Shown: positions 18,536 through 38,849 of the stretch, in pieces | How the letters are laid out: the number at the start of each line of letters is the position of its first letter | How positions within the stretch are numbered: position 1 is the stretch's first letter | Source of the DNA: Roseburia sp. | GTDB taxonomy: Bacteria; Bacillota; Clostridia; Lachnospirales; Lachnospiraceae | DNA length: 40,778 nucleotides | Direction of reading: 5' to 3' | NCBI GenBank assembly: GCA_023662875.1 | Contig: JAMPIG010000025.1 | Location: forward strand, 1-40,778 | Translations under genes and position numbers: made by a program | Notes under the pieces: generated by a model | The model's database searches: none | The model's input: only the letters and a program-made list of their open reading frames with translations | What the model was told of the DNA's origin: nothing

Positions 18536-21500
18536 ATGTTTTCAGAAAAAGAGTATCTTGCTGTAAAGCACACGCTGCGCTTTCGGGAGAACGGGAAGCT
18601 CCGTATTCTCTTTATCACGGATATCCACGGCGGTGTCGGGATGCATCCCCAGACAAAGCCCTGTGTGGACGCTGTGATAGACTATGCGGATCCGGATCTG
18701 ATTCTGGTGGGCGGCGATACCTTCGGGTGCGGCATCGGCGTTTCCAGGCCGGAAGAGGTCAGGGAGTATCTGGATTTGATTATGGAACGGGCTGAGAAAA
18801 AGCGAATCCCTTGGGCTCATGTTTATGGGAACCACGACGATAACCTGGGCGTTTCGAAGGAAGTACAGCAGAAGATTTATGAGAGCTATCCTTTCTGCGT
18901 CTCCAAAGCGGGGGAAGAGGCGATTGCGGGCGTGGGCAACTATGTGCTGCCCGTCCTGCGATCCGACAGCCAGGAGCCTGCGCTGAACATATGGGCGCTG
19001 GACTCTCACCGTTCCATGCCGCGTCCCAGTCAGGTCAACTGGTATTATGAGACGTCAAAGGCGTTGGAGGCGTTCTACGGGAGAAAGATTCCGGCTATCC
19101 TGTACCAGCATATTGAGCTGCCGGAGTATCGGTACATGCTGGAGCAGCCGGAGGAATGCGGGGTGACAGAGACGCAGGGCGAGACGATCAATTTTCCGGG
19201 AGAGAACACAGGTCTCTTTTCGGCCTGTCTGGAGAGGGGGGATGTCCGCGCGATCTTCTGCGGCCATGAGCATTTAGTGGATGTCAGCGGCGTCTATAAG
19301 GGGATTCGGCTCTCCTTCGGCGCTTCCTGCAGTTATGACGCCGGAAGCGCGAATCATCTGCGCGGCGGCAGAATAATTGAGATTTCAGAGGATCATCCGG
19401 AGGAAATCAATACCCGGATGATTCACCTGCAGGATATCATGGGATTAAAGTCCTATTCCTGTGAATCCCGGTCGGTTCCCGATTTAGAACATGCGCCGGA
19501 GAAGGAGTATGCCTGTTATGCCAATATCTTTCACGGATGGGGGAAAGCCGATCTGCCGGCTTGTGAGGGAATCGCGGCGACCTGGCATTTTAGCAGGGCA
19601 ATCTGCGGAAATACCAGCCCTGCCGCCGTACTGCCCTTCGGGAAGCTTTCCGTGGGATGCTACGGAGGCGGGTATCCTGCCGGATACGGCAATATCTGCG
19701 CCAACACGGATGCTCAGGGCTATCGGACGAAGGGAAAGAAGAATCTGTGCCGGGGATTTTCCCATATGCATCAGAGCGGCGCGGGAGCCATCGGCGGGTA
19801 TTACAATTTTGCGGTGGTCAGGCCCTGTTACGGAGAGATCGCGGAGAGCAGGGAGCCTGCAGAAATGATATGGGAGTCGGGAAGACCGGGACATTTCGGA
19901 ACGGATTTACGGATGAAAGGGACGAGGGTTTTGTGTAACGTGGCGGTTTCTCCCCGGGCGGCGATTCATCTGTATGAGTTTAAGGAGGAAGGCGGCTCTC
20001 TTGTCATCGATCTCTCCAATGAAGGTATGGCGGAGGATATCAGCCCCAGGCAGGCTTTTCACGCCAGGTCCACGGACACCCGGATCCGACTTTGCGGAAA
20101 AGACGCCTTTGAGGCGGAGCTTACGATGAGAGGGGTAAAGCTGTACTTTTACGGGCGCTGCGAACAGGCGCAGGAGACGGAGATCTGGCGGCGTCTGGAG
20201 GCGCTGCCGGGGGCGGAGGAGCTTGTTTTGGGCGAGGTCTCGGATACCTTCGGCGTCCGGTTTCGGATGGTGGGAGCAGGGACGGCAAAGCTTGTTCTTT
20301 CGATTTCCACGAGGAGTATCGAGAAAGCGCGTCAGGATGTGCTTGCCCAGACAGAGGATCCGCAGGAGATTTACATCGCGGCTTACCGGCTGTGGGATGC
20401 GTACCTCGGGAAAATAGAGACGGAGGCGTCCACGGAGCGGGATAAGCGGATATTTTATTCCAACTTGTATCATTCGCTGGTAAAGCCCTCCGACTGGAGC
20501 GGCGAGAGCTATGTATACAGAGGAGACGGCCCCTTTGTGACGGATATCGCGACAATATGGCATATGTACAGGACACAGCTGCCGCTGCTCTTTACACTGT
20601 ATCCGGATATCTCGGAAAAGCTGCTGGCGACCTTTATCGAGTTTTGCCGGGTGGAAGGGACGATGCCCGGCAGCCTCATCGTCACAGATCAGTACAAAAA
20701 CCCCTCCGCCCAGGGCAGGATGCTGGCGGAGTACGCCATATATGGCGCTTTTGTCCGCGGCGTGCGGGCGGATTATAAAGCGGCCCTGCATATGGCGGAG
20801 GTCGATCTGATGTCCCTGCATTCCCAGCCGTTTTTCCAGGGTACATGCCAACGGGCGGCCTATGTAGCGGATATGGCGGAGGCCTGTGGCTGTATGGCAG
20901 AGCTGGCGCATACCCTGGGGGAAGACGCTTCGCTGTTTGAGCGCTGGCAGGGCGAGTGGAAGCGCGCGTTTGACCGAGAGACCGGGCTGATGAAGGCGGA
21001 TTCGGCTTATTATGAGGGAAGCCGGTGGAATTTTTCTTTCCGGCCCATGCGGGATATGGAGGCTCGGATGGAAATCGCAGGCGGACGGGAGAATTTTGTC
21101 CGGCTTCTGGATCGGTTTTTCGGCTATACGGATCCGGAGGATACTTCCGCCAGATTTGAGGGCTTTCACAGCGTGTTGGATATGGACGCGCCCCTTGCCT
21201 ATTATTATGCGGGGCGTCATGACAGAATGTGCGAGGTGATGGACGCCGCCATGACTTACCTGTATACCGAAGGCCCGGGCGGACTGCCGGGGAACAACGG
21301 ATCGGGCGGGCTTTCTTCCCTGTATGTCTGGTACGCCATGGGAATGATTCCGGTGTCGGGACAGGATCGGATGATTGTGGGAACGCCCCGTATGCTCCGC
21401 ACGGTACTGCATCTGGCAAACGGGAACGATTTTGAAATCCGCCGGGAGGGAGAAGGAATTTATGTGGAGGAGGCTCTGCTGAACGGAAACCGGCTGGAGA

Positions 21501-21574
21501 CGCTTTCTTTCCCCGCCGGAGAGATGATGAAAGGAGGGACGCTGCTCGTCAGGATGCGCAGGACGGCTGTGTGA
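18536..21574 (+). CDS. Calcineurin-like metallophosphoesterase fused to a GH92 domain
   Basis: This 1012-residue protein has two enzymes in one chain and no signal peptide. Residues 1-310 carry every metallophosphoesterase motif: TDIHGG (Asp29, His31), GGDTFG (Asp61), YGNHDDN (Asn99-Asp101), QHIELP (His192) and CGHEH (243-246). From about residue 325 it is GH92-like (AVLPFGKLSVG, then GFSHMHQSGAGA), ending with LPGNNGSGGLSSLYVWYAMG. GH92 enzymes are calcium-dependent exo-alpha-mannosidases whose signature normally reads G-N-(D/E)-D-x-G; here the acidic pair is Asn-Gly, checked in the DNA, so activity may be altered. The ATG at 18536 has AAGGAG nine bases upstream; the ATG at 18530 is an alternative. 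A phosphate-bearing mannoside is the natural substrate guess. Confidence 0.88.
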   Translation: MFSEKEYLAVKHTLRFRENGKLRILFITDIHGGVGMHPQTKPCVDAVIDYADPDLILVGGDTFGCGIGVSRPEEVREYLDLIMERAEKKRIPWAHVYGNHDDNLGVSKEVQQKIYESYPFCVSKAGEEAIAGVGNYVLPVLRSDSQEPALNIWALDSHRSMPRPSQVNWYYETSKALEAFYGRKIPAILYQHIELPEYRYMLEQPEECGVTETQGETINFPGENTGLFSACLERGDVRAIFCGHEHLVDVSGVYKGIRLSFGASCSYDAGSANHLRGGRIIEISEDHPEEINTRMIHLQDIMGLKSYSCESRSVPDLEHAPEKEYACYANIFHGWGKADLPACEGIAATWHFSRAICGNTSPAAVLPFGKLSVGCYGGGYPAGYGNICANTDAQGYRTKGKKNLCRGFSHMHQSGAGAIGGYYNFAVVRPCYGEIAESREPAEMIWESGRPGHFGTDLRMKGTRVLCNVAVSPRAAIHLYEFKEEGGSLVIDLSNEGMAEDISPRQAFHARSTDTRIRLCGKDAFEAELTMRGVKLYFYGRCEQAQETEIWRRLEALPGAEELVLGEVSDTFGVRFRMVGAGTAKLVLSISTRSIEKARQDVLAQTEDPQEIYIAAYRLWDAYLGKIETEASTERDKRIFYSNLYHSLVKPSDWSGESYVYRGDGPFVTDIATIWHMYRTQLPLLFTLYPDISEKLLATFIEFCRVEGTMPGSLIVTDQYKNPSAQGRMLAEYAIYGAFVRGVRADYKAALHMAEVDLMSLHSQPFFQGTCQRAAYVADMAEACGCMAELAHTLGEDASLFERWQGEWKRAFDRETGLMKADSAYYEGSRWNFSFRPMRDMEARMEIAGGRENFVRLLDRFFGYTDPEDTSARFEGFHSVLDMDAPLAYYYAGRHDRMCEVMDAAMTYLYTEGPGGLPGNNGSGGLSSLYVWYAMGMIPVSGQDRMIVGTPRMLRTVLHLANGNDFEIRREGEGIYVEEALLNGNRLETLSFPAGEMMKGGTLLVRMRRTAV

Positions 21575-21587
21575 AGCAGGATAGGAA

Positions 21588-22916
21588 ATGCAGAAAAAAA
21601 TTACGGATAAAAGAATCAGCTTTTTGTTGTTTATGCTGTGCTGGGGGGCCTACTTTACTTCCTACATCGGGAGGCTGAATTATTCTTCGGCAATATCGTC
21701 CATGAACGCCGAAGGAATTGTCAGCCGCTCTCAGGCTGGTGCGGTCAGTATGATATACTTTTTTGCCTACGCGGCGGGGCAGCTGATCAACGGGATGCTG
21801 GCGGATCGGATAAATCCGAAGTGGATGTTGTTTGCGGGCCTTAGCTTATCCGGTATCGCCAACGGACTGATGGGAACGGTTCCGGTATATCCCTGGGTGC
21901 TGCTTTTCTGGGGGATGAACGGCTATACGCAGGCGATGATCTGGCCGCCGGTCATTCGGATTATCGCGGAAAGATTTACCGAGGAAAAAAGAAAGAAATA
22001 TATTTTTGACTTCGCTTCCAGCATGACGATGGGAACCTTCGCCTCCTATCTGCTGTCGGCGGGGGCGCTGCGCTTCCTGGGATGGAGGTTTGTATTCCGG
22101 CTTCCCGCGCTTCTGCTGTTTGCGGCGGCCGTTTCCTGGATTCTGGGGTACGGGTACATTGAGCGGTTCGTGAGAAAGACGGATGATACGGGGAATTCAG
22201 ACGACAGGGGAAGCGCCGATGAAATCGCGGATATGCGGACAGAGGAAGGGAGAGCGGCGGGAAAGCAGCCGTCGTTTGGTGAAATTCTTTTGGGAAGCGG
22301 AATACTGGCGGCGCTCTTGCCAGTGATTATCCATGGCATGATTAAGGACGGGGTGGTGCAGTGGGTTCCTACTTACCTTCATGAGCAATTCGGCGTGACA
22401 GCCGCCTTTTCAGCTGTTTTGACCATGGCTCTGCCGCTGCTGAACCTGTCCGGGGCGTATCTGGCGAAGTGGGCGGATCGGAAGAACCCCGGGCGGGAGC
22501 TGCGCTCCGCGAGTATCTTTTTTATGCTGGCTACGGCGGCCCTGGCGCTTCTGGCGACTGTGGGGAAATTCGGCGCATTGCTGACAGCTCTGCTGTTTGC
22601 GGTGGTTACGGCGCTGATCATGGCTGCAAACGTGCTGTTTGTCAACGTGATACCGGTACATTTTGAAAAACAGGGAAAGGTAGCGACGGTTTCCGGTTTC
22701 CTGAATGCCAGCGCGTATGTGGGAAGCGCGATTTCCACTTACGTTATCAGCCTTCTTGCGGAGCGGTTCGGCTGGGGCGTTACGGTCGGTACCTGGATCG
22801 GCGTCATGACGCTGGGGGTTGTCTGTCTTTTGATATACAGGGATCGTTATATCGCAATGCCGGAGGGACAGCAGGAGACAGAGCGGCCGCAAAAAGGAAC
22901 GGGCAAAAAGCATTAA
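21588..22916 (+). CDS. MFS transporter of the organophosphate:phosphate antiporter (GlpT/UhpT-like) type
   Basis: This 442-residue, 12-helix carrier begins 13 bp after the phosphoesterase-GH92 gene. Several stretches resemble GlpT/UhpT. YIGRLNYSSA aligns with the GlpT segment holding the phosphate-binding Arg45. LADRINPKWMLFAGL resembles the family loop, and MNGYTQAMIWPP matches the NG-x-x-Q-x-x-x-W-P-P motif. IKDGVVQWVPTYL aligns with the Arg269 region of GlpT, with Lys at the basic position. Two basic residues facing the pore are what a phosphate-ester carrier needs. A charged loop of about 45 residues (around 190-235) joins the halves. The C-terminus KGTGKKH lies inside a tandem duplication. 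Substrate is inferred only. Confidence 0.8.
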   Translation: MQKKITDKRISFLLFMLCWGAYFTSYIGRLNYSSAISSMNAEGIVSRSQAGAVSMIYFFAYAAGQLINGMLADRINPKWMLFAGLSLSGIANGLMGTVPVYPWVLLFWGMNGYTQAMIWPPVIRIIAERFTEEKRKKYIFDFASSMTMGTFASYLLSAGALRFLGWRFVFRLPALLLFAAAVSWILGYGYIERFVRKTDDTGNSDDRGSADEIADMRTEEGRAAGKQPSFGEILLGSGILAALLPVIIHGMIKDGVVQWVPTYLHEQFGVTAAFSAVLTMALPLLNLSGAYLAKWADRKNPGRELRSASIFFMLATAALALLATVGKFGALLTALLFAVVTALIMAANVLFVNVIPVHFEKQGKVATVSGFLNASAYVGSAISTYVISLLAERFGWGVTVGTWIGVMTLGVVCLLIYRDRYIAMPEGQQETERPQKGTGKKH

Positions 22917-22972
22917 ACCAAAAAGCGGCGGCAAAAAGGAACGGGCAAAAAGTATTAATCCAAAAAGCAGCG
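22889..22972 (+). repeat. 42-bp tandem duplication over the MFS stop codon
   Basis: Two copies, 22889-22930 and 22931-22972, differ at three positions. The first copy contains the last codons and stop of the transporter; the second is non-coding and ends just before the GH38 ribosome binding site. It looks like a recent slippage or unequal-exchange duplication. Confidence 0.85.
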
Positions 22973-23002: not shown

Positions 23003-25855
23003 ATGAGCACAATCACAGAAAAGTACGCGAAATTGAAGACAGCGATCGGAGGGAATCGGGAGAAACAGCAGTTTGAATTTACCTATGGGTTACCCGCTGA
23101 AGAAGCGGCCCATATTACGCCGCCCTCCCGGGAGAATGTCCGGATCGTCAGCGAGCTGGGATTTTCGCTGAAAGCCTTCTGGGAAGAGGATGAAAAATAC
23201 GGGAAGGAGCTGGAGGAGGCGCTGGATTTCCTGCTGGGGAAAATGGAAGAGCAGGGAGTGATTACCAGGCAGGACTGTGAGCGGGCGGAAGAAATTCTGC
23301 TGCCCCTGCAGGCCGCGGCGAAAGAGTATCAGCTGATTCTGGCGGCCCATTCCCATATTGACATGAACTGGATGTGGAGCTTTCATGAGACGGTGGCCGT
23401 GACGCTTGCCACTTTTCGATCCATCCTGAACATCATGGATCAATACCCGGATTTCTGTTTTTCCCAGTCCCAGGGTGCAATCTACAAAATAGTAGAAGAG
23501 TATGACCCGGAGCTGATGGAGGAAATCAAACGGCGGATCCGGGAAGGCCGCTGGGAGGTGACCGCATCGTCCTGGGTGGAGACGGATAAAAACATGCCGG
23601 ATGGGGAATCGCTGTTACGTTCTATCCGGTATACGAGGGAGTACCTTTCCGACGTATGGGGGGTGAAGGACTTCGATCTGGACTTTTCTCCGGATACCTT
23701 CGGACACAGCGGAAACATACCGGAGATCGACCGCTTTGGGGAGGTAAAATACTTTTATCACTGCCGCGGAAACGCGAGAAAAGAGATACTTTACCGCTTT
23801 CAGGCGCCCTCCGGAAAGGAGCTGCTTACCTACCGGGAGCCGAACTGGTACAACGGGGCTATTACCACGCAGATGTGCGAGGGGTTTCCGGAGATCGTCC
23901 GGCGCAGCAGCGGCTTAAAGACCGGGCTGGTGGTGTATGGGGTGGGAGATCATGGCGGCGGCCCCACAAGGCGCGACGTGGAGAGGGCGCTGGATATGAT
24001 GACCTGGAAGATTTATCCGTCGATTCGCTTCGGCACGATCCGGGAATATTTCCGGGAGGCGGAAAAAATCCGCGACAGGCTCCCGGTGGTGAAGACGGAG
24101 CTGAACTTCTTCTCGACCGGATGCTATACGACCCAGAGCCGTATCAAGCGGGGAAACAGAAGGCTGGAGGCGGCGCTGCTGGACGCGGAGGCAATGTGTG
24201 CGCTGGCCGGGAGAAAGGCAGGATTTCCTTATGCAAAGGAGAAAATGGAAAAGGCCTGGCAGAATGTGCTCTTTACCCATTTCCACGATATTCTGCCGGG
24301 GTCCTGCGTACAGGATACCAGGGAACACGCCATGGGGCTGTACCAGACTTCTATGGCCACGGCGAACACGCAGATTCAGAACGCCATCCGCGCCATCGGG
24401 GAAAAGATCGACACCTCGTCCATTCCGGTGGATATCGACGGCTACAACAGTCAGTCCGAGGGCGCAGGGGCAGGCTACGGGATAGAGAATTTCATCGGCG
24501 TGCCCAGCACGGAGCGGGGCAGCGGCAGAACGAGGATCTTTCATATTTTCAACAGCCTTTCCTGCGCCCGCTCGGAGGCGGCGGAGCTGACAGTCTGGGA
24601 CTGGACGGGAGATATGCGCAGGCTGCAGCTAAAGGACTCTGCGGGGCGGGAGATCCCCTTCCAGCTTCTGGATCAGGAGCAGCAGAAATACTGGGATCAC
24701 CGATATTTCCGCATTCTGGCGGATGTGACGGCACCTGCTCTCGGTTATACCACGATAGTGCTTTCCCAGAAAGAGGCTGAGAGCTATCCGGTCTATCTGC
24801 AGGATAAAGAGCGGGAATATATCGCGGTGGTCTTTGACGATTATGAGCTGTCCAATGACCGGATCTGCGCAACCATCGATAAGAAATCCGGGAGAATAAG
24901 TTCTCTGAAGAACCGGGAGACCGGAGAAGAAATGATATCGGCGGGGAAATCCGCGGGAATCACTTATCTGGAGACGGAAAGCAGCACCTCCGACGCCTGG
25001 AAGATCGGCAGACATATCCGGGAAATTCCCGCGGACAGATGTATTAAGCTGGAAAGGATATGCGACGGGCCCCTGCGGACAAGTGTGAGAGCGGAGTATG
25101 CGCTGGAGGGAGGTTCCGTCGCAGAGGTGGTCTATTCTCTGGGGAAATACGATACCGCGGTAGAGCTTGCCATGCGGATCGACTGGCAGGGCGTCGGCGG
25201 GGAAACCGTTCCGGTGCTGGATTATCGGGTTCCGCTGTCCTATGAGACAACAAAATTCCGCTACGATATTCCCGCAGGCTCCGTTGTCAGAAAGCCGATG
25301 ACCAACGATGTACCCGGATTAAAGTACGGATGCGCGCTGCAGGAGAGCGGCAGCAGTCTCGTACTGATCTCTGACAGCAAGTACGGCTACAGGGGATATG
25401 GGGATGCTTTGGGCCTGACCCTGATCAACAGCGCCACCCGCCCGGATCCTTACCCGGAGCGGGGCATCCATCGGATCTGCCTGTGGGTGGGGATCGGCAG
25501 CGGCGATCCGAAGGAGACGGAGGATATGGCCTGCAGATATAACCATAAACTGTTTTACCAGCCCTCCAACTGCCATCCGGGAGTGCTGCCCTTAGAGGAC
25601 AGCCTTTTGGAGGCGGTATCCGACAGCGTCGTTATTTCAAGCGTGCAGCCGGGGACGGACGGCGCGGTGCTTGTGCGCGGCTATGAGGTAAGGGGGGAGG
25701 ATGCGGAGACTGTGATCCGGGTAAAGGACGGAGTCCGCAGCGCCCGCTCCACCAATCTGTTCGGAAAGGAAAACGGGATGCCGTGCAGGACGGAAAGCGG
25801 CGGCGTAAGGGTAAAGGCAGCCCCCTACAGTCTGTTTGAGGCCGAAATTATCTAG
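23003..25855 (+). CDS. GH38 alpha-mannosidase
   Basis: This 950-residue protein is a full-length bacterial GH38 enzyme. It has the zinc and active-site motifs AAHSHIDMNWMW (His118, Asp120), FSPDTFGHSGNIP with the expected nucleophile Asp231, and FTHFHDILPGSCVQDTRE. It also has the characteristic helical domain and a long beta-sandwich C-terminus (GYTTIVLSQKE onward). GH38 enzymes hydrolyse alpha-linked mannose with retention. There is no signal peptide, so it acts on imported or phosphorylated manno-oligosaccharides. AAGGAG lies just before the ATG at 23003. It sits between the organophosphate-type carrier and the AlkP-superfamily phosphodiesterase, and exact linkage specificity is unknown. 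Confidence 0.93.
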   Translation: MSTITEKYAKLKTAIGGNREKQQFEFTYGLPAEEAAHITPPSRENVRIVSELGFSLKAFWEEDEKYGKELEEALDFLLGKMEEQGVITRQDCERAEEILLPLQAAAKEYQLILAAHSHIDMNWMWSFHETVAVTLATFRSILNIMDQYPDFCFSQSQGAIYKIVEEYDPELMEEIKRRIREGRWEVTASSWVETDKNMPDGESLLRSIRYTREYLSDVWGVKDFDLDFSPDTFGHSGNIPEIDRFGEVKYFYHCRGNARKEILYRFQAPSGKELLTYREPNWYNGAITTQMCEGFPEIVRRSSGLKTGLVVYGVGDHGGGPTRRDVERALDMMTWKIYPSIRFGTIREYFREAEKIRDRLPVVKTELNFFSTGCYTTQSRIKRGNRRLEAALLDAEAMCALAGRKAGFPYAKEKMEKAWQNVLFTHFHDILPGSCVQDTREHAMGLYQTSMATANTQIQNAIRAIGEKIDTSSIPVDIDGYNSQSEGAGAGYGIENFIGVPSTERGSGRTRIFHIFNSLSCARSEAAELTVWDWTGDMRRLQLKDSAGREIPFQLLDQEQQKYWDHRYFRILADVTAPALGYTTIVLSQKEAESYPVYLQDKEREYIAVVFDDYELSNDRICATIDKKSGRISSLKNRETGEEMISAGKSAGITYLETESSTSDAWKIGRHIREIPADRCIKLERICDGPLRTSVRAEYALEGGSVAEVVYSLGKYDTAVELAMRIDWQGVGGETVPVLDYRVPLSYETTKFRYDIPAGSVVRKPMTNDVPGLKYGCALQESGSSLVLISDSKYGYRGYGDALGLTLINSATRPDPYPERGIHRICLWVGIGSGDPKETEDMACRYNHKLFYQPSNCHPGVLPLEDSLLEAVSDSVVISSVQPGTDGAVLVRGYEVRGEDAETVIRVKDGVRSARSTNLFGKENGMPCRTESGGVRVKAAPYSLFEAEII

Positions 25856-25990: not shown

Positions 25991-27556
25991 ATGCAGAAAG
26001 CCAGGAGAGTGATTTTGTTTGGAATCGACGGCGGGGGCACGTTTTTTGAACAGGCGGACACGCCCAATATAGACAGGATTTTTAAGCAGGGAGCAGTTTC
26101 CCGGCGTACCCTGACGGAGCTGCCCTCCATCAGCGCCCAGTGCTGGGGCTCTATGCTTCACGGCGTGGAATGCGGGCGGCACAGGCTGACCAATGCCGTC
26201 ACGGGAGAGAAGCCCTATCCGCCGGATTCGCCGTACCCTTCCGTATTCCGCGTAATCCGGGAGGCTATGCCGGAGGCGAAGCTTGCCGCCTTCAGCGACT
26301 GGAGCAATATCAACAGGGGAATCATAGAGGAAGGAATCGGCGTGTACAAATGCTCCGCGAAGGATTACGACCTGGTGGAGCCGGCCATTCGGTATATCCG
26401 GGAAAATGATTTTACGTTTCTGTTTTTTCAGTTTGACAGCGTGGATCACATGGGACATAAGCACGGGTACGGTTCCCCGGAGCACCTGGAGATGATTACC
26501 AAAAACGACGGGTATATCGGCCGGATTGTGGAGGCGGTTATGGAATCGGGCCGGATGGAGGACGCCCTGCTGATGCTGGAGGCGGATCATGGGGGAACCC
26601 CCGACTATGGCACGGGAGGCAGCCACGGGGGAGCCACAGACGCGGAGAGATATGTATCCTTTTTTGCCGTAGGAGGAGGGGTGCGGCATACGGAGCTGTC
26701 GGATATGTATGTGCGGGATACCGCTCCCGCGATCCTGTACGCCCTGGGAATCGAGCAGCCGGCGGGCTGGACCGGGCGGGTGCCGGGGGGCATGTTCCCG
26801 GAACGCATGGAGAATCTTCCAAGACCAAAGGGCTTCCCTTCCCAAAAGTCCGCGGAGGACAGGGCGCCGTTGGAGGAACGGGGGCTGTTTTGCAAGGTGT
26901 TTGCCGATTTTGAGCCGCTGCTGTATCTGCCCTTTGAGGCGGAAAGCGCAAGTCCCGAGGGTCTGCGCGTTCACGGCAAGCTTTACCGGGTGAAGGGAGT
27001 GGCGGGGGACGGTCTGCGCTTTGAGGACGGATATCTGTCCCTGCCCTGCCCCTCGCTGAAGGAAGGGTTTTCCCTGCTGGGATGGGTTCGGGCGGAAGCA
27101 AGGAATGATTTGGATCATCAGATCATTGCGGCTGTGGGCGATTCCTGTCAGAACGAGGAGGACGAAGGCGCAAAGGGCTTCAGCCTGCAGGCGGCGGCCA
27201 GGTATATCAGACTGCGCTGTAAGGGAATGTCCGTTCTTGCCCCCACGCCTGTGGATGTGACGAAGCCGGCGGAGGTATCGGAGAGGTGGGTTCATTTTGC
27301 GTTGGTGGCGGATATGGAGAAAAGGCAGTATAGTCTTTCCGTGAATTTTGCACCCATGGAGATGGGGAAGCTGCCGCCGGATATGAGCTTTCCGGAAGGA
27401 GAAACGCTGTACCTGGGACAGGACGAAAAGGAGGATGGAGACTGGCGTCTGCGGGGAGTGCTGGACGACTTCTGTATCTGCCGCAGGGCGCTGGGGGATG
27501 CCGACCTGGAGAGGCTGCGGGAATATTATCAATGTCCGCGGGAAGCACAGGACTGA
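25991..27556 (+). CDS. Alkaline-phosphatase-superfamily phosphodiesterase with C-terminal LamG-like domain
   Basis: This 521-residue protein has residues 1-290 of the nucleotide pyrophosphatase/phosphodiesterase type. Visible residues are FGIDGGG (Asp13), LPSISAQCW (likely nucleophile Ser48), FQFDSVDHMGH (Asp149-His156 metal ligands), EADHGG (Asp199, His200) and GSHGG (His212). From about residue 308 a concanavalin-like LamG domain follows: DGLRFEDGYLSLP, then FSLLGWVRAE, RWVHFALVADM and GVLDDFCICRRAL. LamG domains usually bind sugars outside the cell, yet there is no signal peptide, so this appears to be a cytosolic glycan phosphoesterase or, less likely, a sulfatase or phosphonate hydrolase. 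GAGAGGAG precedes the start. Confidence 0.85.
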   Translation: MQKARRVILFGIDGGGTFFEQADTPNIDRIFKQGAVSRRTLTELPSISAQCWGSMLHGVECGRHRLTNAVTGEKPYPPDSPYPSVFRVIREAMPEAKLAAFSDWSNINRGIIEEGIGVYKCSAKDYDLVEPAIRYIRENDFTFLFFQFDSVDHMGHKHGYGSPEHLEMITKNDGYIGRIVEAVMESGRMEDALLMLEADHGGTPDYGTGGSHGGATDAERYVSFFAVGGGVRHTELSDMYVRDTAPAILYALGIEQPAGWTGRVPGGMFPERMENLPRPKGFPSQKSAEDRAPLEERGLFCKVFADFEPLLYLPFEAESASPEGLRVHGKLYRVKGVAGDGLRFEDGYLSLPCPSLKEGFSLLGWVRAEARNDLDHQIIAAVGDSCQNEEDEGAKGFSLQAAARYIRLRCKGMSVLAPTPVDVTKPAEVSERWVHFALVADMEKRQYSLSVNFAPMEMGKLPPDMSFPEGETLYLGQDEKEDGDWRLRGVLDDFCICRRALGDADLERLREYYQCPREAQD

Positions 27557-27697
27557 GTTTACGGCGTATAGTGCAAAATAGACAAATCAACGTCGCAAAT
27601 GTTATGTTTTCCCTGAAAAAGTCCCTGTTTAAAAAGGGATATGTTACAATTTTACTGTCAAAAGAAGTTATATTTCAACCATCAGAAGGGAGTAAGA
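27557..27697 (+). promoter_or_regulatory. Promoter region of the Lpl-type importer
   Basis: An extended -10 element TG-t-TACAAT lies at 27642-27650 with no good -35, so a transcript would start near 27657. Open frame continues from here into the binding protein, but AAGGGAG and the lipoprotein signal place the true start at 27698. No copy of the GntR-region TTATTAT/ATAATAA palindrome is visible here. Confidence 0.45.
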
Positions 27698-29588: not shown

Positions 29589-29642
29589 ATATCCGGCATT
29601 GATGTGGATTGATACGAAATGAAATAGAAAGAGAGGATGCTT

Positions 29643-30590
29643 ATGAATAAAAACAGGGAGACAACGGTTCGGGCAAAGCGTTCCTGGGAGAAGACGCGAA
29701 AGCTGATCTGGAAAAACCGCGTACTGTATCTGATGCTTTTGCCGGCGGTGGTGAGCCTGATTATTTTCTGCTATGTACCCATGCCGGGGGTCATGATCGC
29801 CTGGAAGGACTACAGCGTAAAGAAAGGGGTTTTCGGAAGTCCTTGGGTCGGTTGGGGTAATTTTGTTGAGTTCCTCCATTCCCACGACTTCTGGAGCGCG
29901 ACGAAAAATACGCTGGTGATTTCCCTGCTGAAGCTGGCTTTCTGCTTTCCGGCACCGATTCTTTTTGCGCTTCTTCTGAATGAGCTGGAGTCGCCGCTCT
30001 ATAAAAAGGTCATACAGTTTTTCACCTTTCTGCCGAATTTCATTTCCTGGGTCATCATCATCTATATCCTGCGCGCGATTTTTACCCCCTACGGCGGACT
30101 GTTCAACAGCATCCGAAACGCCCTGGGTATGAAGAGTATTTTCGTCATGGGGCTGAAGGAGAGCTTTTACCCCCTTGTGGTCGGTTCCGATATCTGGAAG
30201 AGCGTCGGATGGAGCTCCATCATCTATATCGCCGCCCTGGCCGGCGTGGATCAGGAGCTGTACGAGGCTGCCACAGTGGACGGGGCGAATCGCTTACAGC
30301 GGGCCTGGCATATTTCGATTCCGGGGATTCTGCCCACGATCATTCTGCTCTTTATCATGAACATGGGCGATCTGTTGTCCGTCAGCTATGAGCAGATTCT
30401 GCTCCTGCAGCAGCCGGCGAATCTGGAGCTTTCTGTGACGCTCCAGACTTATACTCTGGAGACAGGACTGAAGTACGGGAGATTTGAGTATGCCACCGCC
30501 ATCGGAATTGTCACGGCGCTGTTCGGCCTGATCTGTACGGTGGTGACGAATAAGATTTCAAAGACGGTCAGCGAGATCAGCTTGTGGTAA
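29643..30590 (+). CDS. lplB: Sugar ABC transporter permease, LplB type
   Basis: This 315-residue CUT1-type permease has six membrane segments. The ATPase-docking EAA loop reads AALAGVDQELYEAATVDGAN, very close to the family consensus. The start of the membrane region LYLMLLPAVVSLIIFCYVPM and the phrase MPGVMIAWKDY are typical of LplB proteins. GAGAGG lies six bases before the ATG at 29643; the ATG at 29637 would be too close. It pairs with the permease at 30601. Confidence 0.92.
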   Translation: MNKNRETTVRAKRSWEKTRKLIWKNRVLYLMLLPAVVSLIIFCYVPMPGVMIAWKDYSVKKGVFGSPWVGWGNFVEFLHSHDFWSATKNTLVISLLKLAFCFPAPILFALLLNELESPLYKKVIQFFTFLPNFISWVIIIYILRAIFTPYGGLFNSIRNALGMKSIFVMGLKESFYPLVVGSDIWKSVGWSSIIYIAALAGVDQELYEAATVDGANRLQRAWHISIPGILPTIILLFIMNMGDLLSVSYEQILLLQQPANLELSVTLQTYTLETGLKYGRFEYATAIGIVTALFGLICTVVTNKISKTVSEISLW

Positions 30591-30600: not shown

Positions 30601-31545
30601 ATGGCAAAGAGAGAAAAAGAAAGAGAAGTAAGAAAGAAAAATTTTTTAAAGCAATCCGCCAGCCGTAAGATATTCAACCTGTGCAACGTCGCCTTTCTGG
30701 GAGTGTTTGCGTTTGCTACGCTGTATCCCTTCTGGTATCTGCTTATCGTCAGCTTCAACACGGGACGGGACACTCTGAAGGGCGGGATGTGGTTCCTGCC
30801 CAGAACCTTCACCCTTGAAAATTTCAAGCTGGCCCTGACGGATGACCGGATGTTCCGCTCCCTGGGGATTTCCGTCTTTATCACGTTTATGGGTGTGCTG
30901 CTGGGACTGGTTCTGCTGTCGCTGGTGGCCTACGCCATGTCCGTGAGGGAGTTTCCGGGAAAGACGGCCTTTGCCTTTTTCTGGTATTTTACGACGATCT
31001 GCAGCGGCGGCATGATTCCCTATTATCTGGTCCTGCGCAATCTGAAGCTGACCAGCAGTATCTGGCTTTACATTATCCCGGGCATTTACGGATTCAGCCG
31101 GTTCGTCATGATCCGGACTTATTTCCAGGGCATTCCCTATGAGCTGCGGGAGTCTGCGGAGCTGGACGGGGCGGGACATCTCGCTATCATGTGGAAGATC
31201 TATATGCCGCTGGCAAAGCCCATGCTGGCTACCCAGGGACTGATGATCGGCGTGGGAAAGTGGAACGATTGGTTCACCGGGGCTTACTATCAGACCAAGG
31301 CGAAGCTCTACCCGGCGGCCACGGTGCTGCGGGTGATCATGAACGAGAGTCTGGCGAAATCGGCAAATCAGCTCGGGAACGACACCGGGACACTGATGCT
31401 GGATTCGACGGGACTGACTACTTATACCAGCACCTCCATACAGTACGCCTTCGTGGTGCTGCTGACGATCCCGATCCTGATCGCCTATCCCTTCGTGCAG
31501 AAGTACTTTGTGAAAGGAATGCTGGTGGGAAGCGTAAAGGGATGA
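30601..31545 (+). CDS. lplC: Sugar ABC transporter permease, LplC/YtcP type
   Basis: This 314-residue permease begins 10 bp after the first one, behind AAGGAGG. It has the EAA-type loop YELRESAELDGAGHLAIMWK and the family C-terminus YPFVQKYFVKGMLVGSVKG, which is nearly invariant among LplC/YtcP proteins. Together with the lipoprotein and LplB partner it forms an importer for oligosaccharides and depends on an ATPase encoded elsewhere. Confidence 0.93.
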   Translation: MAKREKEREVRKKNFLKQSASRKIFNLCNVAFLGVFAFATLYPFWYLLIVSFNTGRDTLKGGMWFLPRTFTLENFKLALTDDRMFRSLGISVFITFMGVLLGLVLLSLVAYAMSVREFPGKTAFAFFWYFTTICSGGMIPYYLVLRNLKLTSSIWLYIIPGIYGFSRFVMIRTYFQGIPYELRESAELDGAGHLAIMWKIYMPLAKPMLATQGLMIGVGKWNDWFTGAYYQTKAKLYPAATVLRVIMNESLAKSANQLGNDTGTLMLDSTGLTTYTSTSIQYAFVVLLTIPILIAYPFVQKYFVKGMLVGSVKG

Positions 31546-31580: not shown

Positions 31581-32726
31581 TCAGAGGATCGGCCCGGTGG
31601 AATGGTTTATGATCAGCTGCGGCGGTATGGTTTTCTCGTAATCGGCGCTGTCGGCGTGTTCTATTTTCCGGCGCAGGATAGTGCCGGCCTCCTTCCCGAC
31701 CAGAAATTCGGACTGCTTGATATAAGTAAAATAGTTCATACCGTTTATGCTGATCTGCGGGTTATCGAAGGAGATGAGGGAAACGTCGTTCGGAATGCTT
31801 AATCCCATAGTGTCGAAGACACTGTAGAGATAACGGCAGACCCCGGTATCCGCCGCGATAAAGGCGGTGACCTTATGCTCAGAAATTAGTTTCCTGAAAT
31901 ACTCCGCATAGGAGGTCGGTCTTCTGTGGATGTCAAAGCGCTCTATCACATGGAGACCGGGGCGTGCCATATTCAGCTGTTCCACACGTTTTTTGGCACC
32001 TGCGATACGAAGGCCGACAGCGACGACATCCCGGCTGGAGGTGGTCAGAAAAGCGATACGGTTGTGTCCCAGCTCGTACAGATGATCCACGCACAGGGCA
32101 CCGCCTGCCTCATGGCCGCTTGCCACATAACTGCAGGGAAACCTTGTCACGGGATGATCTACCACAACCAGCGGATAATTTTTCTGCCGGAGAGCCAACA
32201 GCTCTGCGCTGATCAGATCCACGTCATGAGGAAACAGCGCGATGCCTGAGATATTTCCTGTCAGGCAGTAATGCAGCAGCTGATTCATCCCGGCGAAATC
32301 TCTGCTCTGGAAGGTATGGCACAGATAACGGTCACCGGGAAAGGCAGACTGGATCCCGTTGCAGAGGGAGAGGGCGAACATGTCGGTGATATTCGGGAAA
32401 ATACAGGCGATTTCCGTCAGCCCAGGCGAAATTGGGGGGGGTGCCTCCGAGTCGGGCGTACCGCCGGAAAGCGGCCCTGCATCCGTCGGCTTTTTCGTAT
32501 TGGCGGCCTGGACAAAGGTGCCTTTTCCCGGACGGCTGACAAGGATTCCTTCCTCCTTCAGCTCAGAAAGAGCCTTGGAGATGGTGATTCGGCTGACATA
32601 ATAATGATTGGAGAGCTCCTGCTCCGTGGGAAGCTTATCTCCCGGATAGAATACGGAGTTTTCAATCTGGCGTATGATATCGTTTTTGATTTGCCGGTAT
32701 AAAGGGATATTTGATTCTTTTGCCAT
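31581..32726 (-). CDS. GntR-type repressor with LacI-like sugar sensor domain
   Basis: This 381-residue protein has an N-terminal winged helix of the GntR family (PLYRQIKNDIIRQIENSV, then LPTEQELSNHYYVSRITISK and GKGTFVQA, residues 8-72). A proline-rich linker at about 75-95 leads to a periplasmic-binding-type effector domain (EIACIFPNITDMFAL, then AFIAADTGVCRYLY and DVSLISFDNPQ). This architecture is the AraR type, usually a repressor released by a sugar. I place the start at 32726; the frame upstream to 32846 is made of the 39-bp repeats and is probably not translated. It lies between the importer and the ROK operon and likely controls both. An eight-C tract falls inside the linker codons. 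Confidence 0.9.
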   Translation of the reverse strand: MAKESNIPLYRQIKNDIIRQIENSVFYPGDKLPTEQELSNHYYVSRITISKALSELKEEGILVSRPGKGTFVQAANTKKPTDAGPLSGGTPDSEAPPPISPGLTEIACIFPNITDMFALSLCNGIQSAFPGDRYLCHTFQSRDFAGMNQLLHYCLTGNISGIALFPHDVDLISAELLALRQKNYPLVVVDHPVTRFPCSYVASGHEAGGALCVDHLYELGHNRIAFLTTSSRDVVAVGLRIAGAKKRVEQLNMARPGLHVIERFDIHRRPTSYAEYFRKLISEHKVTAFIAADTGVCRYLYSVFDTMGLSIPNDVSLISFDNPQISINGMNYFTYIKQSEFLVGKEAGTILRRKIEHADSADYEKTIPPQLIINHSTGPIL

Positions 32727-32780
32727 GGTGTTGCCTCGTAAAATATTGCTGTATGCCTGTACTTCTGTTTCGCATACTTT

Positions 32781-32869
32781 ATTATAGTACCTGGATAATA
32801 ACATCATCTTTTTGATTTTATTATAGTACCTGGATAATAAAATCATCTTTTTGATTTTATTATAACACC
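32781..32869. repeat. 39-bp tandem repeats with embedded palindromes (operator candidate)
   Basis: Copies at 32781-32819 and 32820-32858 differ by one base, and a third partial copy (ATTATAACACC) starts at 32859. The palindrome TTATTAT-agtacctgg-ATAATAA begins just upstream of copy 1 and recurs at the same register in copy 2, and each copy ends in an AAAATCA/TGATTTT type inverted repeat. On the minus strand, TATAAT sequences suitable as -10 boxes lie within the palindromes. The array sits between the repressor and the divergent ROK gene, an ideal place for repressor binding. Confidence 0.7.
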
Positions 32870-32996: not shown

Positions 32997-34016
32997 ATGA
33001 AAAAATACTCGATAGGCGTTGACATTGGGGGAACAAAATGCGCTGTCGTACTGGGGAAGGGCCGCCTGCCGGAGAAGGAGTCGGATTCTTTTATCCTGGA
33101 TAAGATAAAATTTCCCACAGAGGCGGAAAAGGGGCCGGAGCAGACAATCCGGCGTATCTGTGAGGCGGTAAGTTCGCTTTTGAAAAGAAATCAGGTCAAA
33201 GCGGAGGAGGCGGTAGGAATCGGCGTCAGCTGCGGGGGACCTCTGGATCACAGAAAAGGAATCGTCCTGAATCCGCCGAATCTGTACGGCTGGGATCACA
33301 TTCCGATTGCGGATATCCTGGAAAAAAAATTCGGTATCAGGACTTTTCTCGAAAACGACGCCAATGCCTGCGGGCTGGCGGAGTGGAGGTTCGGCGCGGC
33401 GAGAGGGTATCGGAATATTGTCTTCCTGACCTGCGGGACAGGTCTGGGGGCGGGGCTGATCCTGGACGGCAGACTCTATCACGGGAGCTGCGGCATGGCC
33501 GGGGAGGCGGGACATGTGCGGCTTTCGCCGGAAGGCCCCGTAGGTTACGGCAAGGCGGGATCCTTTGAGGGCTTCTGCAGCGGGGGCGGAATCGCGCAGA
33601 TTGCCAGGACAAAGGTGCTGGAAAAGCTGCAGATGGGCGAGAGGCCGCCCTTGTGTCCCGATGTGGAAGGACTGCAGGCGCTGTCCGCGAAGACGGTGGC
33701 GGAAGCGGCGAAAGCGGGGGATGCGCTGGCCGGGGAGATTTATCGGATAAGCGGCCGATATCTCGGAAGAGGACTGGCGATTCTGATCGACATCCTGAAT
33801 CCGGAGGTGATCGTCCTGGGCAGCATTTACGAGAGAGCGGAGGAGCTGCTGCTGCCGGGCGTCAGCGAGATTCTGGAGAAAGAGGCGCTGGAAATCTCCA
33901 GAAGATCCTGCAGGATCGTCCCCGCAGGGCTGGGGGAGCAGATCGGAGATTACGCGGCGCTCTCGGTGGCTTTTGGGGAGGATTGGGGAGAAGCGGGTGA
34001 CAATGAAGAAGAATAG
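32997..34016 (+). CDS. ROK-family sugar kinase lacking the cysteine zinc motif
   Basis: This 339-residue protein has the actin-like kinase fold of the ROK family: ATP-binding VDIGGTK (residues 8-14), catalytic FLENDANACG with Asp121, CGTGLGAG, and the sugar-binding GEAGHV (Glu170, His173). The C-x-C-G-x-x-G-C zinc motif usual in ROK kinases is replaced by GYGKAGSFEGFCSG (183-196), a variant seen in some Firmicute ROK proteins. It should phosphorylate a hexose, perhaps mannose or a derived keto-sugar. GGAG precedes the ATG. The gene overlaps the SIS gene by 14 bp, so the two are likely made together. Confidence 0.9.
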   Translation: MKKYSIGVDIGGTKCAVVLGKGRLPEKESDSFILDKIKFPTEAEKGPEQTIRRICEAVSSLLKRNQVKAEEAVGIGVSCGGPLDHRKGIVLNPPNLYGWDHIPIADILEKKFGIRTFLENDANACGLAEWRFGAARGYRNIVFLTCGTGLGAGLILDGRLYHGSCGMAGEAGHVRLSPEGPVGYGKAGSFEGFCSGGGIAQIARTKVLEKLQMGERPPLCPDVEGLQALSAKTVAEAAKAGDALAGEIYRISGRYLGRGLAILIDILNPEVIVLGSIYERAEELLLPGVSEILEKEALEISRRSCRIVPAGLGEQIGDYAALSVAFGEDWGEAGDNEEE

Positions 34017-34647
34017 CGATAAGGAAAGAGAAATATTGGAATCCCTCTGCGCAAGGCATCCGGAGCTTCCGGGGGATAAAATCCGGGAAGCGGCGGAGCT
34101 GTTATATCAGACCTATCAGAGCGGCGGCAAGCTTCTTTTATGCGGAAACGGCGGGAACGCGTCGGATGCGGAGCATATTGTGGGAGAGCTGATGAAGGGA
34201 TTCCGGTTGAAGAGGGAGCTCAAGGAGACGGAAAAAGCGCGTTTTCGGGGAATCGACGGGGGAGAAGAGCTGGCAGGGCGGCTGCAGAGGGCAATCCCCG
34301 CCATCTCCTTAAACAGCCAGACCTCCCTGATTACGGCAATCGGAAACGATACCTCCTACGAGATGATTTTTGCCCAGCAGGTTTATGCCTACGGCCGGCC
34401 GGAGGACTGTCTGATTGCCATGAGTACCTCCGGAAATTCCGCCAATGTGGCAGCGGCGGTAAAGACTGCCCGGGCGTTGGGGATGAAGACGCTGGGGATT
34501 ACGGGGAGCAGGCCCTGCGCGCTGTCAAAGCTTTGCAGCCTCTGCATTTTGCTTCCCGCCCATGAGACATGGCAGATACAGGAATACACCCTGCCGGTCT
34601 ATCACGCGCTCTGCGCCATGCTGGAAGAGAGAATGTTTGGAGAGTAA
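34003..34647 (+). CDS. SIS-domain phosphosugar isomerase-like protein (GmhA-related)
   Basis: This 214-residue protein is a single SIS domain closest in pattern to GmhA phosphoheptose isomerase: CGNGGNASDAEHIVGELMKG, SLITAIGNDTSYEMIFAQQV and STSGNSANVAAAVKTARALG. The N-terminal-loop glutamate (VGEL) is kept. In the C-terminal helix, GmhA reads I-Q-E-x-H, but here it is IQEYTLPVYH, so the usual catalytic histidine appears to be threonine. It may isomerise another aldose/ketose phosphate. The start at 34003 lies inside the end of the ROK gene; ROK and SIS neighbours fit a kinase-isomerase pair. Confidence 0.85.
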   Translation: MKKNSDKEREILESLCARHPELPGDKIREAAELLYQTYQSGGKLLLCGNGGNASDAEHIVGELMKGFRLKRELKETEKARFRGIDGGEELAGRLQRAIPAISLNSQTSLITAIGNDTSYEMIFAQQVYAYGRPEDCLIAMSTSGNSANVAAAVKTARALGMKTLGITGSRPCALSKLCSLCILLPAHETWQIQEYTLPVYHALCAMLEERMFGE

Positions 34648-34672
34648 ATTTCAGAGAAGAGAGGAGTTTGTT

Positions 34673-36328
34673 ATGTATCGGTTGTTTCAAACACATGAGA
34701 TTCGGAAAAGCAGGGAAATTGAGGGACTTTGGAATCTGGAGGCGGGAGATTACAGAGGCGTTATCACGGTTCCCTCCTGTTGGGAAACGCTGCCGTCCCT
34801 GGCGAACTGGCAGGGAAAGGGAATCTACACCAGAGAGCTTACCTTTGGCGGGAATGCGCGTCTGATTTTCAAGGGCGTCAGCCATACGGCGGACGTCTAT
34901 GTGGATGATCGGCATATTGCGCACCATTACAACGCCTATACGCCCTTTGACGCGGTGGTCTGTGTGCCTCAGGGAAAGCATGTGATCCGGGTGGAGGTAG
35001 ATAATTCCTTTTCGGAGGATTCCGTTCTGCATATCCCCAACGATTATTATACCTATGGCGGAATCATCCGCCCCGTGGTGCTGGAAGAGCTGGGGGACTG
35101 TTATGTCTCCACGGTTCATTTCACGCCCTTTTATCGGGACGGGGAATGGCACGCGACGGTAGAGACTACGGTGGTTTCCCTGACGGAGCAGGAGACGACT
35201 CTGGAGCTTGGCCTGTATCTGGACGACGAAAGATTTTCCGCCGGGGAGATCCGGCTTTCCGGAAAAGGGGAAAGGGTGTTCCGGCAGGAATATACCTTTG
35301 GGGATGTACTGCCTTATTCGCCCGGCGAACCGAAGCTCTATGCCCTGAAGGCGGTTCTGTCAAAGGACGACAGGCCGGTGGACGATCTGATTGACAGGGT
35401 GGGATTTCGGGAGATTCGGACGGAAGGGAAGAAGCTGCTCCTGAACGGTAGTCCGCTGCGGCTGCGTGGCTTTAACCGTCACGAGGATTACAATGTATTT
35501 GGCAATGCAGTGCCCGTTCAGGCTTTGATGCGGGATCTTGCCCTGATACGGGACACAGGGGCGAACGCCATCCGAACCAGCCATTATCCCAACGACGAGC
35601 TGTTTCTGGATCTGTGCGATTTCTTCGGGCTGATGGTCTGGGAAGAGGCTCATGCCAGAGGGCTGAACGCCGTTCATATGGCAAATCCCAACTTCCTGCC
35701 CCAGAGCCTTAGCTGCATCGATGAAATGATCGGGAACCATTATAATCATCCCTGCATCTTCTGCTGGGGGATTCTGAATGAGTGCGTCAGCGAGACAGAG
35801 TTTGGAAGGGAATGTTACGGCGCGTTGTTTGAGCGGATTCGCAGCCTTGACCGGAGCCGTCCCGTAACGTCCGCCACCTGCCGGGAGGGCAGGGATATCA
35901 CCCTGGATCTCCAGGATATTGTCTCCGTAAATACCTATCCCGTGTGGGGGAGCAGATATGCGCCTGCGGACGAAAAAATGAAAGATTTAAAGAAATGGAT
36001 CGGGGAGACGGGAAACGGGGAAAAGCCGTTCATCATCAGCGAGATTGGCGCAGGCGCCGTATACGGCTTCCGCTCCGACACGCAGTGTCACTGGAGCGAG
36101 GAATATCAGGCCTTCTGTCTTGAGAAGCAGCTGGAGGCCACGCTTTCGGATCCGGATATCTCCGCGGTGTTTATCTGGCAGTTCTGCGATATCCGGGTGG
36201 ATGATGAGTCCCATTGGAAGCAGCGGCCCAAGTCGCAGAATAATAAGGGGGTTGTGGACGAATTCCGCAGAAAGAAGCTGGGCTACCGGGTGGTGAAGGA
36301 GATGTTTGCAAAGTATTCGGAGACGTAG
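34673..36328 (+). CDS. GH2 family enzyme, probable intracellular beta-glucuronidase
   Basis: This 551-residue protein has the GH2 jelly-roll, immunoglobulin-like and TIM-barrel order. The acid/base is in WGILNECVSE (Glu370) and the nucleophile in IISEIGAGAVYG (Glu457). NRHEDYNVFGNAV and RTSHYPNDELFLDLCD are classic GH2 pieces. Near the C-terminus SQNNKGVVDEFRRKK contains N-x-K-G (Asn523, Lys525), the carboxylate-recognition signature that separates beta-glucuronidases from beta-galactosidases. It has no signal peptide and is short for the family, resembling compact gut GUS enzymes. GAGAGGAG precedes the start. Glucuronate in the imported glycan is implied. Confidence 0.87.
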   Translation: MYRLFQTHEIRKSREIEGLWNLEAGDYRGVITVPSCWETLPSLANWQGKGIYTRELTFGGNARLIFKGVSHTADVYVDDRHIAHHYNAYTPFDAVVCVPQGKHVIRVEVDNSFSEDSVLHIPNDYYTYGGIIRPVVLEELGDCYVSTVHFTPFYRDGEWHATVETTVVSLTEQETTLELGLYLDDERFSAGEIRLSGKGERVFRQEYTFGDVLPYSPGEPKLYALKAVLSKDDRPVDDLIDRVGFREIRTEGKKLLLNGSPLRLRGFNRHEDYNVFGNAVPVQALMRDLALIRDTGANAIRTSHYPNDELFLDLCDFFGLMVWEEAHARGLNAVHMANPNFLPQSLSCIDEMIGNHYNHPCIFCWGILNECVSETEFGRECYGALFERIRSLDRSRPVTSATCREGRDITLDLQDIVSVNTYPVWGSRYAPADEKMKDLKKWIGETGNGEKPFIISEIGAGAVYGFRSDTQCHWSEEYQAFCLEKQLEATLSDPDISAVFIWQFCDIRVDDESHWKQRPKSQNNKGVVDEFRRKKLGYRVVKEMFAKYSET

Positions 36329-36425
36329 AGCGGCGGATTTTCTGCCCGGGGGCTCAGACAGGACGGGTTTTTAAGACGCAGGAAAGCCATTATGAGCGGA
36401 TGGAGGATAGGGGAAAGGAAGGGGA

Positions 36426-38849: not shown

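Follow-up and report, generated by a model that had tools for sequence, protein, structure and literature searches.

Gene content and layout

The window analysed here, a stretch of 40,778 nucleotides that makes up the whole of contig C69 of a Roseburia sp. genome (3.72 Mb, 92% complete), carries between positions 18485 and 40100 a set of 13 genes, 12 of them on the plus strand, in which glycosidases and sugar-handling enzymes stand among several phosphoesterases (Table 1). An original prediction, made from the DNA letters, had proposed a pathway for a phosphorylated mannose/glucuronate glycan; here we describe the genes, their counterparts in other genomes and the substrate they may serve. Comparison genomes are numbered with G, fetched loci with L and contigs of the window's own genome with C; G019 belongs to the same genus as the latter.

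The first plus-strand run consists of a metallophosphoesterase (MPE) fused to a GH92 domain, a carrier of the MFS type, a GH38 enzyme, an AlkP-type phosphodiesterase (PDE) with a LamG domain, a lipoprotein-like open reading frame (ORF) and two permeases. The second holds a ROK kinase, a SIS isomerase, a GH2 enzyme, a protein that joins an MPE to a metallo-beta-lactamase (MBL) domain, and a hydrolase of the serine beta-lactamase fold. A regulator of GntR/LacI type on the minus strand separates the two runs, within both of which the intergenic gaps are short.

Table 1. Genes and features of the locus, with window coordinates and basis of assignment
Feature	Coordinates	Strand	Basis
MPE-GH92 fusion, 1029 aa: calcineurin-like MPE (res. 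39-263), degenerate GH92 (res. 375-1025)	18485..21574	+	Pfam, motifs, structure model
MFS carrier, organophosphate:phosphate antiporter type	21588..22916	+	NCBIfam (below cut-off), PDB 1pw4, alignment
GH38 alpha-mannosidase-type enzyme, 950 aa, catalytic motifs present	23003..25855	+	Pfam, PDB alignment, motifs
AlkP-superfamily phosphodiesterase/phosphatase, C-terminal LamG	25991..27556	+	Pfam, alignment
Lipoprotein-like ORF, importer binding-protein position	27641..29545	+	Translation, hydropathy, same-position ORFs elsewhere
Importer permease, LplB-like	29637..30590	+	Pfam BPD_transp_1
Importer permease, LplC-like	30601..31545	+	Pfam just below cut-off (24.5 of 26.4)
Regulator, GntR-HTH and LacI-type sensor; likely start ATG at 32726	31581..32846	-	Pfam, sequence, counterpart in G019 locus
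39-bp tandem repeat with perfect 12-bp inverted repeat (32834-32845/32852-32863), between regulator and ROK	32778..32869		Sequence
ROK sugar kinase	32997..34016	+	Pfam; 61% copy in own contig C63
SIS isomerase, GmhA (phosphoheptose isomerase) type	33973..34647	+	NCBIfam, PDB, 61% copy in C63
GH2, probably beta-galacturonidase	34673..36328	+	PDB 6ncw, aligned R366
MPE + MBL two-domain phosphoesterase, 807 aa	36426..38849	+	Pfam, HxHxDH, Foldseek
Serine beta-lactamase-fold hydrolase/esterase	38937..40100	+	Pfam; NCBIfam AcmB-like, below cut-off

A phosphoesterase fused to a degenerate GH92 domain

Both parts of the fusion are recognised by Pfam, the MPE domain at 57 bits (cut-off 21.5) and the N- and C-terminal GH92 domains at 52 and 195.5 bits, over cut-off. 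According to PMC12858847, GH92 enzymes need an acid Glu (Glu533 of BT3990) and a base Asp (Asp644, the third residue of a DED, NDD, NED or NSD motif), the latter conserved in all members examined there and inactivating when mutated. The window domain keeps the acid as E844 in YYEG, and its base motif reads NNG (within GNNGSGG), Gly replacing Asp. This Asp is kept, as NND, NED or DED, in all six unfused homologues aligned, including the intact L036:5815-7872 (46% identity to the window domain). The sole other fusion found, that of G019, reads DNH, with His at the base position, and its acid segment is missing as well. The alignment shows further changes in the window copy, at the WD of the preceding subsite and in the NEP-type region.

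Since the catalytic base is lost, the GH92 domain probably does not work as a mannosidase. The original prediction had listed GH38 and GH92 as mannosidase-type enzymes; both are found by Pfam and the former keeps its motifs, so that its GH92 half holds for the family and probably not for the activity. We infer that the domain is a pseudoenzyme retained for structure or binding. Neither its reading frame nor its codon-position GC is unusual, and in the structure model a region rich in strands gives way to a run of helices, as expected of a GH92 (judged by eye), with several GH92 loops of low confidence. A frame or assembly error as the origin of the fusion was excluded, as two species share it at 52% identity and neither part is abnormal in codon-position GC.

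The fusion occurs in two of 61 genomes, the window's own included, and in one of 59 MPE-type loci obtained from genome contigs, which is that of G019 itself; none further was seen among 295 genomes of the order. No paper on an MPE-GH92 fusion was found in a search of openly licensed papers.

Phosphoesterases and carrier

The motifs DxH, GDx, GNHD, H and GHxH, whose residues make up the metal site of calcineurin-like MPEs, are present in both MPE domains of the window, the second of which scores 50 bits with Pfam. In the AlkP-type PDE, residues D13, D152, H156, D199 and H200 are invariant in all five aligned rows. The MBL domain falls below the Pfam cut-off (21.0 of 22.7); it carries HxHxDH from residue 572, and Foldseek relates the model of the MPE-MBL protein (mean pLDDT 74) to the MBL domain of ComEC (9ic4, TM by target length 0.78) and to Pce (1wra, 0.66), its N-terminal half matching purple acid phosphatases (TM 0.55-0.59). 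Since HxHxDH is kept and the model resembles these proteins, a diesterase and a monoesterase paired in one chain are plausible. The two MPE domains and the AlkP-superfamily enzyme named in the original prediction are thus borne out, and its MBL fold is supported by motif and structure matches, short of the Pfam threshold.

The carrier was likewise correctly seen as organophosphate-antiporter-like. Its NCBIfam relatives are PgtP/GlpT/UhpC-like, all far below cut-off, and its PDB relatives are GlpT (1pw4, 4.6e-12) and SLC37A4. R29 is invariant and position 253 holds K or R in five of five aligned relatives (K253 in the window); these align with R45 and R269 of GlpT, the basic residues of its substrate site.

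MPE matches are common in the window's own genome (18, of which 17 over cut-off, in 3.72 Mb) and at least two lie within 20 kb on four contigs, so two such genes within 20 kb are not rare here. A tandem pair of further MPEs lies at 10370-12420 of contig C134 (L029). The two window MPEs fall in separate lineages of a tree built on 30 MPE rows, each paired with its G019 counterpart (supports 100/99 and 94/80, the second below the star threshold; the tree has ten open forks and three flagged long branches, no window row among these), by which a recent local duplication was rejected.

Sugar enzymes

The GH38 enzyme contains AHSHID at 115, SPDTFGHS at 229 and FHDILPG at 427, and with them the HxD metal site, the nucleophile Asp and the His of FHD on which GH38 catalysis depends. 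Full-length relatives occur in G025 (64% identity) and G053 (50%).

The GH2 ORF opens at 34562 and homology begins at M38. Its best solved relative, at 592 bits over 546 residues, is 6ncw, named 'Beta-galacturonidase' and taken by us to be the Eisenbergiella tayi enzyme, with which the residue number fits; the best glucuronidase reaches 167 bits. The uronate motif NxK is present in window and 6ncw alike, and R366 of the window enzyme faces R337 of the 6ncw chain (counted along the alignment). In the E. tayi enzyme R337 is the residue that selects galacturonate, as PMC10535898 states. Because 6ncw is closest and this epimer-selecting Arg is kept, the enzyme that the original prediction took for a GUS-type GH2 is probably a beta-galacturonidase.

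The SIS protein, a SIS isomerase by Pfam as predicted, can be refined to the GmhA type: it scores 142 of 209 bits with NCBIfam gmhA, below the equivalog cut-off, matches GmhA in the PDB at 6e-36 and keeps the aligned metal-site residues. Enzymes of the GmhA type work on aldose phosphates of manno configuration, so the enzyme fits mannose 6-phosphate or manno-heptose phosphate. As sole mannose-6-phosphate isomerase (PMI) of the cell it was rejected, a canonical PMI (type I match) being found on contig C85, one that the C-terminal PMI model does not detect by itself. The ROK kinase is confirmed by Pfam, and GH38, importer, ROK kinase and manno-type isomerase taken together argue for an alpha-manno-configured sugar. 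The predicted esterase is, by Pfam, a serine-hydrolase gene of beta-lactamase fold that lies just outside the interval the prediction covered.

Importer, regulator and localisation

The LplABC importer of the original prediction holds as to its two permeases, the second just below the Pfam cut-off, while the ORF in the binding-protein position matches no Pfam family over cut-off. This lipoprotein-like ORF, which probably begins at the methionine of MKRKK (residue 20), is 22-26% identical to ORFs in the equivalent position of L026 and L032. No ATPase gene is present among the 13 locus genes; LplABC-type importers, from which the permeases take their LplB and LplC names, are likewise without an ATPase gene of their own. 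In a simple hydropathy scan (not SignalP) the enzymes show no N-terminal export-like segment, in agreement with the prediction that they lack signal peptides, and the lipoprotein-like protein does carry one.

The repeat between the regulator and ROK genes is operator-like and may serve as an operator. In chosen intergenic stretches one imperfect palindrome was seen upstream of the binding-protein gene, and no palindromic operator is shared between window and G019.

Recurring modules in other genomes

On contig C63 of the same genome a lipoprotein-like ORF, PermB, PermC, ROK, SIS and GH38 follow each other in a row. No phosphoesterase lies inside this row; one MPE match (31 bits, C63:22661) stands about 4.7 kb past the GH38. 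ROK and SIS are each 61% identical to the window copies. G025 has ROK, SIS, a kinase that we take from its two Pfam domains to be of the four-carbon-acid type, and GH38. From these arrangements, the ATPase-less importer with ROK, GmhA-type isomerase and GH38 is shown to be a recurring module, combined in the window with GH2, MPE fusions, PDE and antiporter; the locus is a mosaic.

The phosphoesterase genes recur as well. PDE and MFS genes are adjacent, with a DeoR regulator, in G555, G049 and G020. The G019 locus, on a contig that is the reverse complement of L035 (JAAWLQ010000087.1, a Lachnospiraceae metagenome-assembled genome), has the MPE-GH92 fusion, an MPE-MBL gene, MFS carrier, regulator and a gene for a PHP domain (slightly under the Pfam cut-off); beside the fusion gene a 540-aa ORF (L024:9886-11508) has no Pfam match. 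In L036 (Oscillospiraceae SIG603) the unfused intact GH92 is followed within 8.6 kb by GH38, two more ORFs and an MPE of the fusion-MPE clade, 2.7 kb from the GH38, on the opposite strand and beside an aldose epimerase; the MPE-epimerase pair recurs in L037, whose contig also carries a GH130. Because the fusion exists and L036 has MPE, GH92 and GH38 together, a functional tie of this MPE clade to mannosidases is likely where they co-occur.

Among more distant genomes, G026 has MPE, PHP, importer genes, PfkB, GH4 and GH38 together, and in G496 a divergent GH38 and a 1240-aa protein that combines LamG and PDE-type domains lie 3.3 kb apart. MBL proteins resembling the C-terminal half of the window protein stand with such importers in G356 and G524, the latter also with an AlkP-type PDE. 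At L157:9816-19499 G524 has an ORF of more than 3,200 aa, cut by the stretch end, with a window-like MBL domain, beside three more MBL-type genes, an importer and an AlkP-type phosphodiesterase.

A possible substrate

With somewhat less than even confidence, we read the locus as one for the cytoplasmic breakdown of a short phosphate-substituted oligosaccharide with alpha-manno and beta-galacturonosyl residues. The importer would bring the oligosaccharide into the cell, where the galacturonidase would take off beta-galacturonate, the PDE and MBL domains would cleave phosphodiester caps and the MPE domains strip the remaining phosphate. GH38 would then free the alpha-linked manno-configured sugar, ROK would phosphorylate it and the SIS enzyme isomerise the product into central metabolism. 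The antiporter would swap a sugar- or glycerol-type phosphate for inorganic phosphate, the dead GH92 domain might hold the manno-sugar for the MPE domain of the fusion, and the GntR/LacI-type protein would sense a product. In this form the phosphorylated-glycan pathway of the original prediction survives in part: intact phosphoesterase motifs, the antiporter and L036 suit it, while its GH92 is probably dead and its uronate probably galacturonate.

Several observations appear to favour this reading. The motifs of both MPEs, PDE, MBL, GH38, GH2 and SIS are intact, and the gaps within the two plus-strand runs are short. Both MPE fusion genes, MFS and regulator stand together in G019, with the MPE lineages apart in the tree. 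The core module of C63 is consistent with it, as are GH38 beside SIS in three of 40 SIS loci (each also with ROK) and in G025, the MPE-GH92-GH38 group of L036, the PDE, MFS and DeoR genes of G555, G049 and G020, and the PDE-type domain near the divergent GH38 of G496.

The main doubt is whether phosphoesterase genes and sugar genes share one substrate, and here a series of findings weighs against the proposal. Co-conservation of phosphatases with mannosidases in relatives, the absence of which the original prediction had named as refuting it, is largely lacking. In the 40 SIS loci (out of 44 non-own places scoring at least 149 bits in 250 family genomes; 11 of the 40 stretches are shorter than 19.5 kb) no MPE or PDE of window type was found, the three with GH38 included, and an MBL in one; the models were narrow and window-derived (E up to 1e-10) and, like those applied to the C63 module and the 59 MPE-type loci, were built from few sequences and will miss distant phosphoesterases. 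Among the 61 genomes (matches at E up to 0.001), five others hold both MPE and GH38, namely G006, G019, G020, G026 and G043, and only G026 has them on one locus. The PDE relatives of G049, G053 and G020 lie on other contigs than the GH38 matches, G020 and G053 being fragmented assemblies. GH38 was found in two of the 59 MPE-type loci, once as a fragment at the stretch end, and a separate GH92 in one; all 59 were searched for both in all frames, 18 of them first on non-overlapping ORFs only. The closest GH38 relative, on a 6.1-kb contig of G025, adjoins ThuA and Gfo/Idh genes and not phosphatases. By these counts the linkage of phosphatase and mannosidase is rare and patchy, not family-wide.

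Other points bear on the enzymes themselves. MPE, AlkP and MBL folds include members whose substrates are not phosphoesters, and the fold matches of the MBL domain also comprise RNase J and the MBL-fold arylsulfatase 8gyg. The MPE-MBL gene of G019 (L024:2948-5350) is split over two frames with stops between, apparently either a pseudogene or an assembly error. Because the genome has a canonical PMI on another contig, the sugar handled by the SIS enzyme may be a different one, which leaves room for a heptose.

The locus could also be taken for a mosaic of unrelated modules, an ordinary mannoside/galacturonide locus beside phosphate-scavenging genes (PDE with antiporter, MPEs) that share no substrate, and this we consider quite possible, though well short of probable. 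The C63 module does without an internal phosphoesterase (its one MPE match lying 4.7 kb beyond), PDE, MFS and DeoR are free-standing in three genomes, MPEs of this kind adjoin varied genes in Oscillospiraceae (judged by eye or, for some, by Pfam), and four contigs of the genome itself have MPEs within 20 kb. Such independence is less easily reconciled with PDE and MFS genes interleaved with GH38 on one strand at short gaps, with an MPE fused to a mannosidase-like domain in two species, or with MPE, GH92 and GH38 on a single contig in L036.

It seems unlikely that the substrate is yeast-type phosphomannan, with the locus forming the last, intracellular part of a pathway for fungal mannan like that of Bacteroides. 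Its precedent is real: according to a review (PMC10154615), Bacteroides thetaiotaomicron uses GH38 and phosphatases on yeast mannan, GH38 removing phosphate-attached mannose and the phosphatases the phosphate. The statement of the original prediction that phosphate chemistry is not expected in a mannan locus was therefore too strong. However, a scan of 28 ORFs of the window, which did not extend to other contigs, found no GH76, GH99 or GH125, the window GH92 is degenerate, and a beta-galacturonidase is not known to have a role in yeast mannan.

Very unlikely, in our estimate, is the inner core of Gram-negative lipopolysaccharide (LPS), made up of heptose, phosphate, phosphoethanolamine and uronate. 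GH38 would cleave alpha-manno-heptosides, ROK and the GmhA-type enzyme would turn heptose into sedoheptulose 7-phosphate, the phosphoesterases would remove core phosphate and phosphoethanolamine and the galacturonidase core uronate. A SIS enzyme of GmhA type with its aligned metal-site residues kept, in a genome that has a canonical PMI, would suit this, and so would the match of the MBL domain to the phosphorylcholine esterase Pce; yet no heptose-specific kinase, epimerase or Kdo enzyme was recognised among the window ORFs scanned, and GmhA-type enzymes could act on mannose 6-phosphate. Openly licensed papers searched for heptose catabolism with ROK offered nothing relevant. At its boldest, and slightly less credible again, the idea is that a gut Lachnospiraceae feeds on phosphorylated LPS inner core, with GH38 as a manno-heptosidase, heptose entering the pentose-phosphate pathway and the dead GH92 as the phosphatase's sugar-holding module. 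That the GH92 part is active by a changed mechanism, for instance phosphorolysis with phosphate replacing the base at a Gly/Ser-rich loop, is the least credible proposal of all: loss of the base with E844 retained would fit it, inverting phosphorylases having no base, but in the G019 fusion the acid segment is missing and His takes the place of the base, WD and NEP-region residues of the window copy have changed too, and several loops of the modelled part are of low confidence.

Plant glycosyl-inositol-phosphorylceramide, the core of which is mannose-glucuronate-inositol-phosphate, was dismissed as a substrate in view of the GH2, which resembles a beta-galacturonidase; a literature search on it brought up only an unrelated review.

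The locus offers a compact enzyme set, in which the phosphoesterase fused to an apparently dead mannosidase may be an instance of a glycosidase fold put to new use in directing a phosphatase. If genes were annotated from domain names only, the locus would probably be given the wrong sugar, glucuronate for galacturonate, and a GH92 activity that is probably absent.

Surroundings of the locus

A second sugar locus lies upstream at 1530-11029, with an ABC importer having BPD_transp_2 permeases, a GH78-type rhamnosidase, a GH3 and a HAD hydrolase, and positions 12000-14679 hold an ABC-2 type transporter pair and then an Mrr-type restriction endonuclease gene. Beyond that sugar locus are a GH88 and an FG-GAP protein whose match to RGL11 stays sub-threshold, a possible sign of pectin. 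Between these last two genes and the locus, the minus-strand ORF 17772-18203 has a weak PD-(D/E)XK transposase-family match below cut-off and a lower GC of 0.48; it is a possible insertion boundary.

Comparison with known systems

By sequence the window GH92 shares its two domains with the exo-alpha-mannosidases BT3990, AnGH92A and CcMan5 (2xsg) and keeps their acid Glu; it differs from them in the lost base and in being fused behind an MPE. CcMan5-type GH92 enzymes, which we take to uncap Man-P-Man, have their substitution at the acid, not at the base. With Pce/CbpE phosphorylcholine esterase and the MBL domain of ComEC the MPE-MBL protein has in common the MBL fold with HxHxDH; unlike Pce it lacks an N-terminal export-like segment and Pfam choline-binding repeats, and it is fused to an MPE domain. 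Compared with the GlpT/UhpT/SLC37 organophosphate antiporters, the carrier has an Arg aligned with one substrate-site Arg and a Lys aligned with the second, and all its NCBIfam scores are far below cut-off. The GH2 shares the selectivity Arg of 6ncw and probably its activity. GmhA proteins are the best PDB relatives of the SIS enzyme and their metal-site residues align, whereas the window protein stands in a catabolic context, has an insertion at residues 82-106 and stays below the equivalog cut-off.

Degradation of phosphate-bearing glycans by Gram-positive gut bacteria was not found described in searches of openly licensed papers. For phosphomannan, the combination of GH38 and phosphatases is already known from Bacteroides (PMC10154615), and GH38 acting on phosphate-linked mannose together with phosphatases would be common to the B. 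thetaiotaomicron yeast alpha-mannan system and the window. In contrast to that system, the window has a degenerate GH92, an additional galacturonidase, phosphodiesterases and an ABC importer, with no GH76 or GH99 among the ORFs scanned.

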